IMG/VR virus record: IMGVR_UViG_3300033153_004941 | Location: 1 to 23,251 of that record | DNA from: a virus | DNA: 23,251 bases | Reading direction: 5' to 3' (one strand) | Shown here: one piece after another, positions 2,004 to 7,132 of the stretch | How positions within the stretch are numbered: position 1 is the stretch's first letter | Layout: every line of letters begins with the position of its first letter | Position numbers and translations under genes: made by a program | Notes under the pieces: generated by a model | Databases searched by the model: none | What the model saw: the letters and a program-made list of their open reading frames with translations, nothing else | Told to the model about the DNA's origin: nothing

Positions 2004-2235
2004 GTTCTCTGTGGGGAGAGCTAACTCGCATACACAGACACCGAGCCGAAAGGCTGGATGCGACACGAATGACGAAAGTCTAGGTGCTCTGAGGTTGGAG
2101 GGAAATGTAGTAGGCTTAGTGGAAGTCCCATAGCTCCGCTTAATAAGGTGGGGGAAACAGGCACTAAGAACAACTGTCGTGGCCACCACAGGCGCTTACT
2201 ATCAACGACCTATCAAATCTACGCTAAGCGTGCCT
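1997..2235 (+). ncRNA. Candidate structured non-coding RNA upstream of terS
   Basis: About 240 nt without a convincing gene hold a chain of stems. CTCT/AGAG is at 2007-2020. TCGCAT 2026-2031 pairs with ATGCGA 2058-2063 and encloses AGCC-GAAA-GGCT (2044-2055). GAC-GAAA-GTC is at 2071-2080. CTTAGTG 2115-2121 pairs with CACTAAG 2162-2168 and encloses CCCA/TGGG (2127-2130/2149-2152). An 18-nt imperfect inverted repeat is at 2174-2191. AGGCGCTTA 2190-2198 pairs with TAAGC-GT-GCCT 2225-2235. Two GAAA tetraloops and nested perfect stems suggest a folded RNA. CTAGG-T/G-TCTCTG-like motifs recur at about 2000-2010 and 2081-2090. I do not recognise it as tmRNA, RNase P or a clear group I intron. The exact boundaries are uncertain. 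Confidence 0.45.
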
Positions 2236-2274
2236 GAATAGTGAAAACAATCAATAAACAACAAAGGAAACTAA

Positions 2275-2760
2275 ATGGCTGATAATAAACTAACAGTAAA
2301 GCAAGAGAAGTTTATTGTTAATGTGTTTAAGGGTATGACTCAACGAGATGCTTATATCGATGCGTATAACGCTCATTACGCCGTTGAAACCATTGATGCT
2401 AATGCTTCCCGACTAGCAAGAACAGAAAAGGTTTCACAGCGATTGGCTGAATTGCGAGAACAAGTTATATCGGATGCAGTAATGTCGGTCACTGAACGCA
2501 AAGAGAGGTTATCACAGCTCGCTAGGGAAGATGTGAAGAAGCCACTGACCGGTAAGGAAGTGGTGTTATCAGTGGCCGAGCTCAACAAGATGGAGCATAT
2601 ATATGATGAGCTTACCCCGGTGGGTACTACTATAGTCAACAGTTTCACCTTCATATTACCTGATGGGACGAAGGTAAGTCCCAAGCAGTTAATGGAAGTC
2701 AATCCCGCAGAGGGGAATAATGAACAAAGACACAGCGTTACAAAGGAAACAGACGCTTGA
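2275..2760 (+). CDS. terS: Terminase small subunit
   Basis: This 161-aa protein opens LTVKQEKFIVNVFKGMTQRD, the signature of the Terminase_2 family (PF03592): 'LT-x-KQ-x-F', then 'AYIDAY', 'A-x-RL' and 'KV-x-x-RLAEL' to about residue 62. The N-terminal helices form the DNA-binding part, followed by an oligomerisation helix and a C-terminal tail. In the family it forms a ring that recognises the phage packaging site and stimulates the large subunit. The ATG follows AAAGGA at a good distance. Its last 41 bases overlap the next gene and contain the first of five 9-bp repeats, a plausible recognition site for this very protein. Confidence 0.88.
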   Translation: MADNKLTVKQEKFIVNVFKGMTQRDAYIDAYNAHYAVETIDANASRLARTEKVSQRLAELREQVISDAVMSVTERKERLSQLAREDVKKPLTGKEVVLSVAELNKMEHIYDELTPVGTTIVNSFTFILPDGTKVSPKQLMEVNPAEGNNEQRHSVTKETDA

Positions 2761-2974
2761 GCGTGTAAAGCGTTACAGGGAAAGGCAAAAGAGCGTTACA
2801 AATGGGGAGCGTTACAAGGATAGCGTTACACCCTTGTATGACTACGACTTAGAGCCAGCTGAATGGGTTATGCTACACATCGAAAGAACACAGGACCAAG
2901 TAGACAGATTCCCAATGATACCGCTACCCTTTGGTCGGGCGTATTATGAGGCACTAGAGGAGCAGAAGAGTTAA
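2720..2974 (+). CDS. Small basic protein overlapping terS
   Basis: The 84-aa protein starts MNKDTALQRKQTLERVKRYR, has a very basic N-terminal helix, a variable linker, and an ordered C-terminal half (PAEWVMLHIERTQDQVDRFP). It overlaps the end of terS by 41 nt, with GAGGGG upstream of its ATG. Small proteins of this type (basic helix, 'VT'-rich linker, short conserved tail) are common near phage packaging genes but uncharacterised. Its N-terminal half is laid over five AGCGTTACA repeats read in different frames (ALQ, RYR, SVT, RYK, SVT), so the linker may be shaped by a DNA site rather than by protein function. Confidence 0.6.
   Translation: MNKDTALQRKQTLERVKRYRERQKSVTNGERYKDSVTPLYDYDLEPAEWVMLHIERTQDQVDRFPMIPLPFGRAYYEALEEQKS
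2734..2830. repeat. Five-copy 9-bp repeat array AGCGTTACA
   Basis: Exact AGCGTTACA is found at 2734-2742, 2769-2777, 2792-2800, 2808-2816 and 2822-2830, all in the same orientation. Start-to-start spacing shrinks from 35 to 23, 16 and 14 bp. The copies fall in different reading frames, so the conservation is at DNA level. Position over the 3' end of terS suits a terminase recognition site (pac, or a cosB-like R-site array). An iteron-type replication or regulatory site is the alternative. Confidence 0.75.
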
Positions 2975-2994
2975 TATGATAGGTGAGTATTGAA

Positions 2995-3345
2995 ATGAAA
3001 CACGGAAAGAAACAATTTGACCCGTTAAAACTTCGGGGTAACTCCTATGTTATATGGAGGAATACCAGGGCATTTTTGCATAAAAGAGCTAAAGGTAAAT
3101 GTTCTGATTGTAGTAGGAAGTTAACTCTGTCTGAAGCCGAGATACATCATATTAATGGTTGTGGATTAGATAATCACTTACAGAATTTAGAGGTTCTTTG
3201 CCCTTCTTGCCACGGTGTAAAAACGCAGAATAATGGTAAGCAAGGGGAACTACAAGTTCCGAAGTCCGAGAATAGCTTCAATTCTAGTTCCATACCACTA
3301 GCAGTGAAGCAGGAAGTGTATGATATGTGCTTTCCCCGTGCGTAA
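2995..3345 (+). CDS. HNH endonuclease between the terminase genes
   Basis: The 116-aa protein from ATG 2995 (AGGTGAG upstream) carries CSDC at 36-39, the HNH core EIHHINGCGLDNHLQNLEVL from residue 49, and CPSCH at 69-73. H51/H52, N60/N64 and H73 make the metal-dependent beta-beta-alpha nuclease site, with four cysteines binding structural zinc. A GTG at 2983 would add four residues. HNH proteins next to terminase genes are known packaging partners (HK97 gp74 type) that help cut DNA at cos sites. Free-standing homing HNH enzymes also insert in such places. Its place between terS and terL suits the packaging role, but homing cannot be excluded. Confidence 0.88.
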   Translation: MKHGKKQFDPLKLRGNSYVIWRNTRAFLHKRAKGKCSDCSRKLTLSEAEIHHINGCGLDNHLQNLEVLCPSCHGVKTQNNGKQGELQVPKSENSFNSSSIPLAVKQEVYDMCFPRA

Positions 3346-3557
3346 ATGGTAGACATAACCCTAATAGTGCGCCCCAAACTAGGCACGGATTATTGTTATC
3401 GTTAAGCTGTTGACAGGTGTCTTTTATATTACACTCAGGTTTAAGATGATTGGCACGTATTGGCACAAATCTTACACGGTATAGTGTTCCATTAGATTTC
3501 TTATATAAACCCCTTATTTTACATTGTAGTGCTTGTCATACCCCGTGTAGAGGAGAA
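3346..3557 (+). promoter_or_regulatory. Non-coding leader of terL
   Basis: These 212 bases have no credible gene. They contain a direct repeat TTGGCAC (3450-3456 and 3460-3466, 10-bp period, one helical turn) and a possible long-range stem, TACACGG 3473-3479 with CCGTGTA 3543-3549, whose 3' arm lies just before the AGAGGAG ribosome binding site of terL. A perfect TTGACA at 3410-3415 lacks a well-spaced -10. Unusually long for this tightly packed region; it may control terL or be a leftover from mobility of the preceding HNH gene. Confidence 0.4.
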
Positions 3558-4592
3558 ATGACAACAACAGTAATTGAAAAAGAGATAACTTTACTTCCAG
3601 GTCAAGCCTCTTTATTGACTGATTTCAAGAGCTCTGTCTTGGCTGCGATAGCTGGTACTGGTGGTGGAAAGACTATGACTGGGTACTGGTGGTTGCATAG
3701 CAGGATGGAGGCATACCCTAACAATACCTGGGGTATGGCTGAGCCCACTTATAACATGTTAAGTAAGATTATCCTTGAGAGTTCGGACCCGGACAGGCCG
3801 ACACTTGAGCAGTACTTTAAGATGGTGGGGCATCATCCAGACTATCACGCTGTTGATAAGATACTATATACCGACTTCGGTAAAATCTATCTCGGGTCTG
3901 CTGACAGACCCGACTCAATGCAGGGTGCTGCACTTAAAGGGTACTGGTTGGATGAGGCTGGGCAGATGGCCTTATTAGCCCATGAAACAGCCTCACAGAG
4001 ATGTTCTATGCTTGCAGGACAGGAGTTATTAACTACTACACCTTACAACTTAGGCTGGTTACTGACTGCGATTAAGAACAGGGCTGGTACTGCTGGGATT
4101 CATGTTGAGTCGTGGAGAAGTATAGACAGGCCTGGCTTTCCTCGAGAGAGTTATGAAAGGGCAAAACAGACGTTACCATGGTGGCGCTTTGCTATGCTCT
4201 TTGATGCACAGTTTGAGAAGCCAGCAGGGTTAATATATTCGAGTTTTAATGAGGCGGTATGTGTGATTGACCGCTTCCCGATACCCAAGAACTGGATGAT
4301 ATACTCAGGACATGACTTCGGCCCCGACAATCCAGGGGCTTTATTTTATGCCCAAGACCCGGACACTGGGCAGTTTTATCTGTTTGCTGAATATCTACCG
4401 GGTCCCGGTGTATCAGTGCATGAGAGGGTTGAGGCATTTAAGAAGATTGTAGAAGGGTACACTGTTCTGAAGCGTGTTGGTGGCTCTCCCTGTTGGTGGC
4501 TCTCCCCAGGAAGAGGAGAACAGACAGGCTTACAATGCACATGGTTGGGTTATATCCAAGCCCAAGATAGGTCATGTAGAACCGCAGATTGA
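3558..4592 (+). CDS. terL: Terminase large subunit, ATPase part (frame broken)
   Basis: The start ATG at 3558 (GAGGAG upstream) is chosen over earlier TTG codons, whose extension looks non-coding. ATPase motifs are clear: Walker A GTGGGKT at residues 33-39, Walker B YWLDEAG with D132/E133, and the coupling motif TTTPYN at 159-164. The nuclease domain begins with GHDFG (D253) and FAEYL (E278). After VGGSP (residue 311) an exact 16-bp tandem duplication shifts the frame; this frame then reads a Cys/Trp/Arg-rich nonsense tail and stops at 4592. With one repeat unit removed, the gene would run to 4824 as a normal-looking protein of about 416 aa. As written, the nuclease domain is incomplete. Confidence 0.88.
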   Translation: MTTTVIEKEITLLPGQASLLTDFKSSVLAAIAGTGGGKTMTGYWWLHSRMEAYPNNTWGMAEPTYNMLSKIILESSDPDRPTLEQYFKMVGHHPDYHAVDKILYTDFGKIYLGSADRPDSMQGAALKGYWLDEAGQMALLAHETASQRCSMLAGQELLTTTPYNLGWLLTAIKNRAGTAGIHVESWRSIDRPGFPRESYERAKQTLPWWRFAMLFDAQFEKPAGLIYSSFNEAVCVIDRFPIPKNWMIYSGHDFGPDNPGALFYAQDPDTGQFYLFAEYLPGPGVSVHERVEAFKKIVEGYTVLKRVGGSPCWWLSPGRGEQTGLQCTWLGYIQAQDRSCRTAD

Positions 4593-4824
4593 TAAAGTAT
4601 TCGCCATGCACCAGTTGAATAAAATCATGGTGTTCAGGGATATGGAGCATTACTTAGATGAAAAGAGGACATTTGCAAGGGAACTTGATGGTGAGAATCA
4701 ACCGACTGCAAAGATAGCTGATGAGGCGAAGTTCCATTTAATGTCTTGTGAGCGGTATATATTAAGCGATTTCACACCAGAGACGGTGGTTAGAGGAAAG
4801 TCCAGTGAAGCAGTCAATTATTAG
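4474..4824 (+). CDS. terL: Terminase large subunit, C-terminal nuclease part (second frame)
   Basis: This frame resumes terL after the duplication: GGSPQEEENRQAYNAHGWVI continues directly from VGGS. The end holds KIADEAKFHLMSC, whose Asp fits the third catalytic acid of the RNase H-like terminase nuclease. On its own it would start with GTG at 4474 without a proper ribosome binding site. It is therefore best read as the tail of terL, not as an independent gene. The stop at 4824 is 9 nt before the portal start. Whether a full protein is made depends on whether the duplication is real, repaired by slippage, or an assembly error. Confidence 0.8.
   Translation: MLVALPVGGSPQEEENRQAYNAHGWVISKPKIGHVEPQIDKVFAMHQLNKIMVFRDMEHYLDEKRTFARELDGENQPTAKIADEAKFHLMSCERYILSDFTPETVVRGKSSEAVNY
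4475..4506 (+). repeat. Exact 16-bp tandem duplication inside terL
   Basis: TGTTGGTGGCTCTCCC is present twice with no gap, at 4475-4490 and 4491-4506. Sixteen is not a multiple of three, so the duplication shifts the terL frame by one. Deleting either copy restores ...KRVGGSPQEEENRQ..., a smooth terminase nuclease sequence. Confidence 0.95.
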
Positions 4825-4833
4825 GAGTAGCTA

Positions 4834-6570
4834 ATGGAAGATACGTTAGAGAAAGTTAAGAAGAGGGTAGCAGAACTCCAGCCACTTTACGACCGCATGG
4901 ATAAGACCAAGGATTTAGTTTATCTTTCACCCTACAAAATGCGGAACTTCGACAAGGCAGAGATGGAGAATGTCATCAATGTAACCACTAACTGGCCGGC
5001 TATATATGCCAATGCTATCATCTCAGACCTCATGGGTGCGATATGGCAAACGGTAATCGAGAGTAACACAAAACTGTCCGATAAACAGAAGCATGTTATC
5101 GAGAACTTTATTGAAGACAACCTGGCCCAGGCGGATGAGCAATTAGCAACAAGGGGCATGGCCGATTTATTTACCTGGCTCTGTAACCATGTTTGTATCA
5201 GGAGCCTTATTGGAGCTCGCTGGATTTCTCAGTTTGATAAAGGCGTCTACAAAAATGATTGCCTGCCGGTGGATATGCGCTGGACCCCCTTTGAGTTCGG
5301 TAAAGATGGCTTGTCCTGGGTAGCTCATAAGACCTTCCGCAGTAAGGCAAGAATACTATCGCAATATGGGGTAGATGTTGGTGAGGACGAAATAGAAGTA
5401 ACCGATTTCTGGGATTGTGAAAAGAACGAGGTTTGGCTTGGGGATGAAAAGGTTGATACTGTAGTAGTTAATGGGAAGGTTCAGAAGAGGCAAGAGGAAC
5501 ATCCCTTTGGTTATCCCCCCTTCGTGATAGTAATTCCCTCTTCTGGCTTTATGCTCAGAGACAAGGGCTATATAGAGCATGAGGGTGAGGACTTATTATT
5601 TTTGAGCAGGGGTCTCTATGAAGAGCGTAGTCGTCAAGTGTCTATTGAGCAGACTTTAGGCATGGACGTGCTTTTCCCACCCTATGAGCAGGAGTCGGAC
5701 GAACCCGGGACGCCAGCAGATAAACCGCCCAAAACGATGCAAACAAAAAAGGTCAAAAAGGGAGAACTGCACCAGCTTCTTCCCAGGGGGGACATAACCA
5801 ATGCCTTCCGTGCTAGTCGGGCAGACATTCAGAACATGATAGAGATGGGGGGGCCACTTTTACCAAGGGCTTATAACCAGCCACCATCGGCGGTAGAGGT
5901 TCAGGCTGAAGTAGAGTTATTGGCGAGATGGCACTATCCTCGGGTAAAAGCGCTGGCTCAGTTCCGTCAACAATTAAGCCGAATGATGATTGACCAGTAT
6001 ATCAAAATTAGTGAGCAGGTTAAAGGTAAGTCCGACATCACAATCGGTGCTACTGGCCAGAAGCGGATTTATTCAGTGCAGCAACTGGGAGACCCTGGAA
6101 CCTATACTATCAAAAACCAGTTGATGACCAAGAGTAAGAAGCAGGAGATTGTCAACCTGGCAATGTTTGAGGCAGCTCGGGGAGAATTACCGCTAAGGGT
6201 GAGGCTGACTGATATTCTAATGGCTGACGACCCAGATGGAATAATGCGAGAGCTTGATATTGAAAAAGCAAGGCAAGCTGACCCTGCCATTGGGCTATTT
6301 GAGATGGCTATTAGGTATGCAGAGGAGGCGGAAAACCTCGAGGGTAGTGATGCCGATACGAGAAAAATACAATCAATGATGCTCACTGAAAGAGGATGCA
6401 GTATTATCCGGCAAAGAGCACAGATGCCACAACCACTCCCAGAGGAGGCGACAGTTCCACGGGAAAAGACTAAGGGACCCAGTGGCCAGCCTCTAATGCA
6501 TTTAATGGGGGGCGGTGGTGGAGGTGGTGGTCAACGTCAGCCAACAGAGGAGGCAACCATTGGCGATTAA
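4834..6570 (+). CDS. Portal protein
   Basis: At 578 aa, directly after terL, this is the expected portal: the dodecameric ring at one vertex through which DNA enters and leaves. The N-terminal region is helical, followed by 'NVTTNWPAIYANAIISDLMGAIWQ', a mixed alpha/beta wing (residues 100-230), and a long helical stem/crown region, including GGPLLPRAYNQPPSAVEVQAE-type sequence near residue 345 and ARWHYPRVKALAQFRQQLSR after it. The C-terminus ends in an unusual run of eight glycines (MGGGGGGGGQRQ) and a short acidic tail. The GGAG site precedes the ATG. The stop overlaps the next gene by 11 nt. The call rests on position, size and helical pattern; the exact portal family is not determined. 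Confidence 0.82.
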   Translation: MEDTLEKVKKRVAELQPLYDRMDKTKDLVYLSPYKMRNFDKAEMENVINVTTNWPAIYANAIISDLMGAIWQTVIESNTKLSDKQKHVIENFIEDNLAQADEQLATRGMADLFTWLCNHVCIRSLIGARWISQFDKGVYKNDCLPVDMRWTPFEFGKDGLSWVAHKTFRSKARILSQYGVDVGEDEIEVTDFWDCEKNEVWLGDEKVDTVVVNGKVQKRQEEHPFGYPPFVIVIPSSGFMLRDKGYIEHEGEDLLFLSRGLYEERSRQVSIEQTLGMDVLFPPYEQESDEPGTPADKPPKTMQTKKVKKGELHQLLPRGDITNAFRASRADIQNMIEMGGPLLPRAYNQPPSAVEVQAEVELLARWHYPRVKALAQFRQQLSRMMIDQYIKISEQVKGKSDITIGATGQKRIYSVQQLGDPGTYTIKNQLMTKSKKQEIVNLAMFEAARGELPLRVRLTDILMADDPDGIMRELDIEKARQADPAIGLFEMAIRYAEEAENLEGSDADTRKIQSMMLTERGCSIIRQRAQMPQPLPEEATVPREKTKGPSGQPLMHLMGGGGGGGGQRQPTEEATIGD

Positions 6571-7132
6571 ATGGACTGTCGGTGAGATTAGAAGGGCAAG
6601 TGAGATTGGGTACAAGGGAACTAGCAAATATATCTGGAACGCTTGTTCTATCTGTGGAAGGGAACGATGGGTTCAGTTTAGAGAGGAAAAATCAGCAACG
6701 ACACGGTGTTTTAAGTGTGCTCATCAGAATAACCATAAATCAAACTGGAAGGGTGGTAAAACCTTGAATCCCTCAGGTTATATGAGGGTAAGGCTTCAAC
6801 CTGATGATTTCTTTTTCCCCATGGCGGATAAAGCCCATTATGTGCAAGAACACCGCCTTGTTATGGCAAAACACTTAAAGCGGTGTTTGCTACCCTGGGA
6901 AGTCGTGCATCATAAAGGAACGAAGTATCCCCCTGGCAGCTTGGAAGATAAGGGCGATAATCGCATTGAAAACTTAGAACTCATAACTGATAAACGATTT
7001 CATATAGTAGATATGAGAGTTAAAAATCTTATTACCTCATTGCAAAAACAAGTGAAGGACCATGCCAAAGAGATACAACTTCTTAAATGGCAAGTAAGGG
7101 AACTTAACAAGAAAAAAGCGGAGGTGGTTTGA
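6560..7132 (+). CDS. Second HNH endonuclease with N-terminal zinc ribbon
   Basis: The chosen start is TTG at 6560, 6 nt after a strong GAGGAGG (6547-6553), giving 190 aa; an upstream ATG at 6515 lies deep in the portal gene. CSIC (29-32) and CFKC (50-53) form a zinc ribbon. The HNH_3-type core follows: EHRLVMAKHLKRCL from residue 97, WEVVHHKG (H117/H118), then DNRIENLELIT. A basic coiled-coil tail (about 155-187) ends the protein. It overlaps the portal stop by 11 nt and the next start by 1 nt. Unlike the HNH between the terminases, its HNH_3 layout resembles free-standing homing endonucleases, so it may be a mobile passenger that was fitted into the operon. Confidence 0.85.
   Translation: MAIKWTVGEIRRASEIGYKGTSKYIWNACSICGRERWVQFREEKSATTRCFKCAHQNNHKSNWKGGKTLNPSGYMRVRLQPDDFFFPMADKAHYVQEHRLVMAKHLKRCLLPWEVVHHKGTKYPPGSLEDKGDNRIENLELITDKRFHIVDMRVKNLITSLQKQVKDHAKEIQLLKWQVRELNKKKAEVV

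Follow-up and report, generated by a model that had tools for sequence, protein, structure and literature searches.

What reads a short repeated word beside the terminase genes of a phage, and in which process? The question is raised by a 23,251-bp viral stretch (IMG/VR record IMGVR_UViG_3300033153_004941, hereafter the window) that contains five exact copies of the 9-mer AGCGTTACA, all on the plus strand and starting at 2734, 2769, 2792, 2808 and 2822 (spacing 35-23-16-14 bp). The original prediction was a packaging recognition site bound by the small terminase subunit TerS, with an adjacent HNH protein as a possible cleavage partner. The packaging reading as such is plausibly right, whereas the roles given to TerS and to the HNH protein were not supported.

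The array and its surroundings

The array starts within the terminase small subunit gene terS (2275–2760, plus strand; profile matches to Terminase_2 and phrog_51) and continues in a small ORF of 84 aa on the same strand (2720–2974), which was aligned with eight array-bearing relatives. An HNH endonuclease gene (2983–3345) and a terL region (3450–4824) follow on the plus strand, both identified by profile matches. The terL frame is broken, giving ORFs at 3450–4592 and 4474–4824, and where it breaks GTTGGTGGCTCTCCC is repeated with a 16-bp period (4476–4507); the break is damage or an assembly error. A second HNH endonuclease gene, at 6515–7132, overlaps the end of a portal-like gene.

Copy 1 (2734–2742) lies where terS and the small ORF overlap, copy 2 (2769–2777) falls within the codons of a basic helix (KRYR), and copies 3, 4 and 5 follow at 2792–2800, 2808–2816 and 2822–2830. 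Relative to the small ORF the copies are in frames 2, 1, 0, 1 and 0, encoding ALQ, KRYR, SVT, ERYK and SVT, which confirms the predicted five exact same-strand copies in different frames and extends them to all three frames of this ORF. As terS stops at 2760, the claims that the array lies over the terS 3′ end and that two overlapping genes accommodate the copies apply to copy 1 only; copies 2–5 are carried by the small ORF alone, and the array lies mostly beyond the end of terS. No further exact copy was found outside 2734–2830 in the 23,251-bp record. With up to one mismatch, the window held 10 sites, compared to 3.4 ± 1.85 in shuffled sequences, and 10 sites were reached in none of 100 shuffles.

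When the small ORF was recoded synonymously with the codon use of the window, five copies of any 9-mer were obtained in 0 of 20,000 trials (best result, three), and the encoded protein allows AGCGTTACA at exactly five positions, every one of which is occupied. Because the copies fall in three frames and recoding gave at most three copies per 9-mer, selection at the DNA level is well supported, as had been proposed, and the array is very probably a protein-binding cluster. Its GC content is 0.46, and an AT-rich stretch is found ~440 bp away at 2234–2293. An Rfam search of the window returned no match, and the fold of 1985–2274 was not structured (z −0.44).

The small ORF had no match in PHROG and no significant match in Pfam. 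It matched A3, a family profile of phage replication initiators, with an E-value of 2.9e-4 in a small local set; profile searches found no initiator domain in the small ORF or its neighbours, and the similarity to A3 is confined to the helix. In an AF2 model, residues 3–27 form a helix, with pLDDT of ~82–91 over the first 20 residues and the rest poorly predicted. The putative recognition-helix core, TLERVKRYR (2753–2779, plus strand; class T..RV..YR), was assigned by reading the codons and from the helix-motif association in initiator genes described below. Annotated phages yielded no relatives of this ORF or of those from L106 and L020. A search with A5, which comprises the closer relatives of the small ORF, gave four loci (three on contigs already known), and a search for family A4 in 400 genomes of one phylum gave the known copy and one weak match only.

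Recurrence of the word and its helix

Three copies of AGCGTTACA within short gaps were found in 33 viral stretches, compared to 3 for the reversed word. Some of the 33 are unremarkable tandem repeats in coding sequence (PSVT and similar) and were set aside; many others are irregular and lie in several frames, on both strands or in noncoding DNA. The mixed-strand arrangement GCGTTACA..GCGTTACA..TGTAACGC occurred in 36 viral stretches, against 0 for the reversed control, and in 45 bacterial stretches, from genomes spread over many phyla. In whole-record searches the word was present in 24 of 25 virus records, nearly always as one cluster, and in ten bacterial genomes paired copies were likewise confined to one or few places. 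Since the copies form one cluster per record rather than being scattered, in keeping with the original expectation, the word behaves like one cis-acting locus in each phage. Tight hairpin-like CGTTACA runs were also seen in four Bacteroidales contigs (L082, L086, L113 and L119), apparently outside a phage replication or packaging context.

Across many unrelated phages the array word turns up in two settings, namely replication-initiator genes and the terS–terL interval. The initiator genes encode DnaB_2, Phage_rep_org_N or Lin1244_N proteins, and the word is found immediately after the helix; annotated phages with this arrangement include Enterococcus VEsP-1, Streptococcus SM1 and Listeria A500. 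A basic helix fitting [1]..R[5]..[8]R lies close to the array at 21 of the 85 loci with arrays, compared to 3.9 expected, and usually immediately precedes it. As a guard against circularity, initiator loci were next chosen solely for their wHTH domain, which gave 160 loci and, after reduction, a set of 92. CGTTAC was the commonest 6-mer with at least three linker copies in these genes (33/92) and was never present at three copies in the upstream control stretch.

Within this set, the helix class T..RV..[HY]R was paired with CGTTAC (27/27), N..RK..SR with CGTGAC (16/17), N..RM..AR with ACGTGC (7/7) and D..RK..R with ACGTCC (9 genes, with 11 further genes lacking a callable array). Helix class and motif thus agree in 59 of the 60 callable genes out of 92, the classes and motifs having been defined together on the same genes. 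For family A3 alone the agreement is 33 of 34, the permutation maximum being 23 in 100,000, and for family A2, in which 24 of the 26 genes belong to one class, the test has little power. The A3 tree implies a minimum of 11 to 16 switches of helix class, with most forks weak and few well-supported independent pairs. The window ORF, with its helix TLERVKRYR and CGTTAC array, shows the pairing given by this code.

A model of an initiator consists of a helical wHTH-like N-terminal domain, a long helix reaching residue 124, a low-confidence linker (residues 125–183) and a DnaD-like C-terminal domain, and the linker is the stretch encoded by the array. Farther down the linker, A3 initiator genes (e.g. 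L154 and L195) have a further repeat, CCTAACC / ACCAACC, which encodes TVPNPT-like runs and is possibly a second DNA-level array. The replication initiator gene of Sbash (gp77; L328, 45011–46081) has a GGGTTA linker array and no basic helix.

In the second setting, arrays lie in the terS–terL interval or on the TerL side in at least nine contigs (the window, L008, L020, L055, L056, L057, L072, L074 and L319, the last on the TerL side), so the predicted recurrence of the same 9-mer in the same place was found in other terS–terL contigs. These loci match the terL profiles phrog_2, 3717, 979 and 38 and the terS-side profiles Terminase_2, GP3_package, DUF5681 and phrog_4044. The array is therefore at or beside terminase genes, as a pac or cos site would be, in the window and at least eight other contigs. 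An overlap between the small ORF and the 3′ end of a terS-like gene was seen in L014, L056, L057, L072 and the window. No HNH gene adjoins the array in L057, L072 or L008, which argues against this protein as a needed partner. Ten Terminase_2 loci from Chloroflexota genomes had no array, and the array is thus not a general feature of terS. The L055 contig encodes, at 2119–3162, the N-terminal part of TerL with a GAGK motif, followed by an intein-like sequence.

A possible packaging role and competing functions

We propose that the five 9-mers would form a half-site cluster for a DNA-binding protein, the likeliest reader being the basic helix of the small protein whose own gene holds the array. 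By marking the phage DNA alongside the terminase genes, this protein would help the TerS/TerL complex to start at the array, much like at a pac or cosB site. The position of the cassette, between terS and terL, makes packaging its likeliest job. Going by the sequence, it is about an even call that the array represents packaging-side recognition sites read by the helix of the small protein. Both the contact between helix and sites and its use for packaging in the window phage are inferred, and a packaging start at the array would follow only by analogy with the recorded genome ends of Sbash and the Charlieviruses.

The analogy starts from the array ORF of L008, which matches phrog_6975 (E 1.8e-7), the actinophage gene 1, which lies after base 1 of the record and ahead of terL. 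We take base 1 of these records to be the cos end, as is the convention for such records. Gene 1 of mycobacteriophage Sbash encodes ATCRKRHSR (R4 K5 S8 R9); its 54 kb contain a single CGTGAC cluster, at bases 30–62, before the matching helix gene and terL. Charlieviruses have a helix with an acidic first residue plus RK, and three CGGGAC copies at bases 16–40; Gordonia phage Eyre has a similar helix, yet a GTGCC array at the recorded end, which the code does not predict. Each of these end arrays has 3–5 sites, and the helix-motif match was judged after the classes were known. A search for phrog_6975 in 348 genomes of another phylum returned noise. The window ORF has neither the C-x2-C Zn-ribbon of this gene 1 nor a match to its profile.

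Alternatively, the array could be a replication origin, or a second one, its repeats acting as iterons for the small protein or the phage initiator, in the manner of lambda ori within gene O or of SPP1 oriL/oriR. Replication is a serious competitor since the same word, together with the helix, is common in DnaB_2, Phage_rep_org_N and Lin1244_N initiator genes, and for the same reason the word cannot be called specific to packaging, as had been implied. Phage SPP1 offers a precedent with two origins that contain direct repeats ~13 kb apart, one of them inside gene 38 (PMC6316719), and in the window the GC skew changes sign near 1.5–2 kb, where the genes diverge, with the AT-rich stretch at 2234–2293. 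The small ORF has no initiator domain, however, and the array, at GC 0.46, appears to have no AT-rich stretch directly beside it. Furthermore, three relatives with the terS-type arrangement (G001, G002 and G004) have a second array with other words (TGTAAGT, TTGTCAGT and TGTCACG) immediately 5′ of a gene for a helicase or P-loop ATPase, so that their origin is probably elsewhere and the terS-side cluster is probably not their only one. Taken together, we consider an origin at the window array unlikely. Against the packaging reading, the helicase-side array of G008 uses a word, TTGTAACTAT, similar to the terS-side one. Arrays of short words, the word differing from one to the next, were also observed near AT-rich stretches directly 5′ of helicase or P-loop ATPase genes in L309 (~5107), L311 (~4540), L316 (~13592) and L314 (~18618), and are likely origins.

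The sites lie inside the small gene just past its start, and the terS–terL operon arrangement recurs, as would be expected if the small protein bound its own gene and blocked or timed transcription into terL and the late genes; such autoregulation alone would not account for arrays that lie at the recorded ends of genomes or precede replication genes, and we regard it as distinctly unlikely. The originally favoured reader, TerS, would bind the array as a pac site through the HTH of Terminase_2, with the small ORF as a by-product. SPP1 gp1 does bind pac, which overlaps the region of gene 1 encoding the gp1 DNA-binding domain (PMC6316719), but the word stays constant while the terS type varies between GP3_package, Terminase_2, DUF5681 and phrog_4044, and the recurring neighbour is the small basic-helix protein, making TerS a very unlikely reader. 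A mutational or coding repeat with no function at the DNA level is hardly credible: although many matches to the word are tandem coding repeats, the window copies are irregularly spaced in all three frames, both-strand and noncoding copies exist elsewhere, and synonymous recoding failed to produce such an array.

Relation to known systems

More broadly, phages of many bacterial phyla may share a modular bZIP-like helix with a residue-to-base code, each with its own half-site array in the adjoining linker DNA and serving both replication initiators and terminase-side packaging proteins, a view that we hold tentatively and rate a little below an even chance. If true, a 9-residue stretch of protein predicts the word that marks a phage origin or packaging start, such sites can be found in uncultured phages by sequence alone, specificity swaps can be tested in laboratory phages, and a zipper-less bZIP-like reading head exists in phages of bacteria. 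Self-encoded iterons (lambda O, PMC7466680; SPP1 gp38, PMC6316719) are known, as are cosB/pac sites; neither the helix-to-word code nor its terminase-side use was found in the open-licence literature searched, and nothing relevant was recognized in open-licence full text for the array word, GTAACGTTAC or bZIP in phages.

The phage helices space their variable and fixed residues (1, 4, 5, 8 and 9) as the basic regions of eukaryotic bZIP proteins do, and the initiator classes have ACGT-type half-sites. In contrast to the bZIP signature N-x-x-A-A-x-x-[SC]-R, the phage helices have R-K or R-V in place of A-A, and the leucine zipper is absent, the helix being followed in the models by a low-confidence, largely unstructured stretch. 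The sole PDB protein matched by one helix was NFIL3 (E 0.57, not significant). Actinophage gene 1 (Sbash, Charlievirus) likewise combines a small helix protein with a short array near the recorded end and terL, but phrog_6975 has a Zn-ribbon that the window ORF lacks.

As in SPP1 oriL/gp38 and lambda ori/O protein, where binding-site repeats lie inside the gene of the binder (PMC6316719, PMC7466680), the window array would be located in the gene of its own reader, although the gene that carries it is a short ORF on the terS side and lacks initiator domains. With the R-sites of lambda cosB and with SPP1 pac the window shares several short sites beside the terminase genes for what would be a packaging protein, and differs in that the likely reader is a putative, additional small basic-helix protein rather than TerS. 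Furthermore, SPP1 pac is situated at the 5′ end of terS, whereas the window array lies at and beyond the terS 3′ end.
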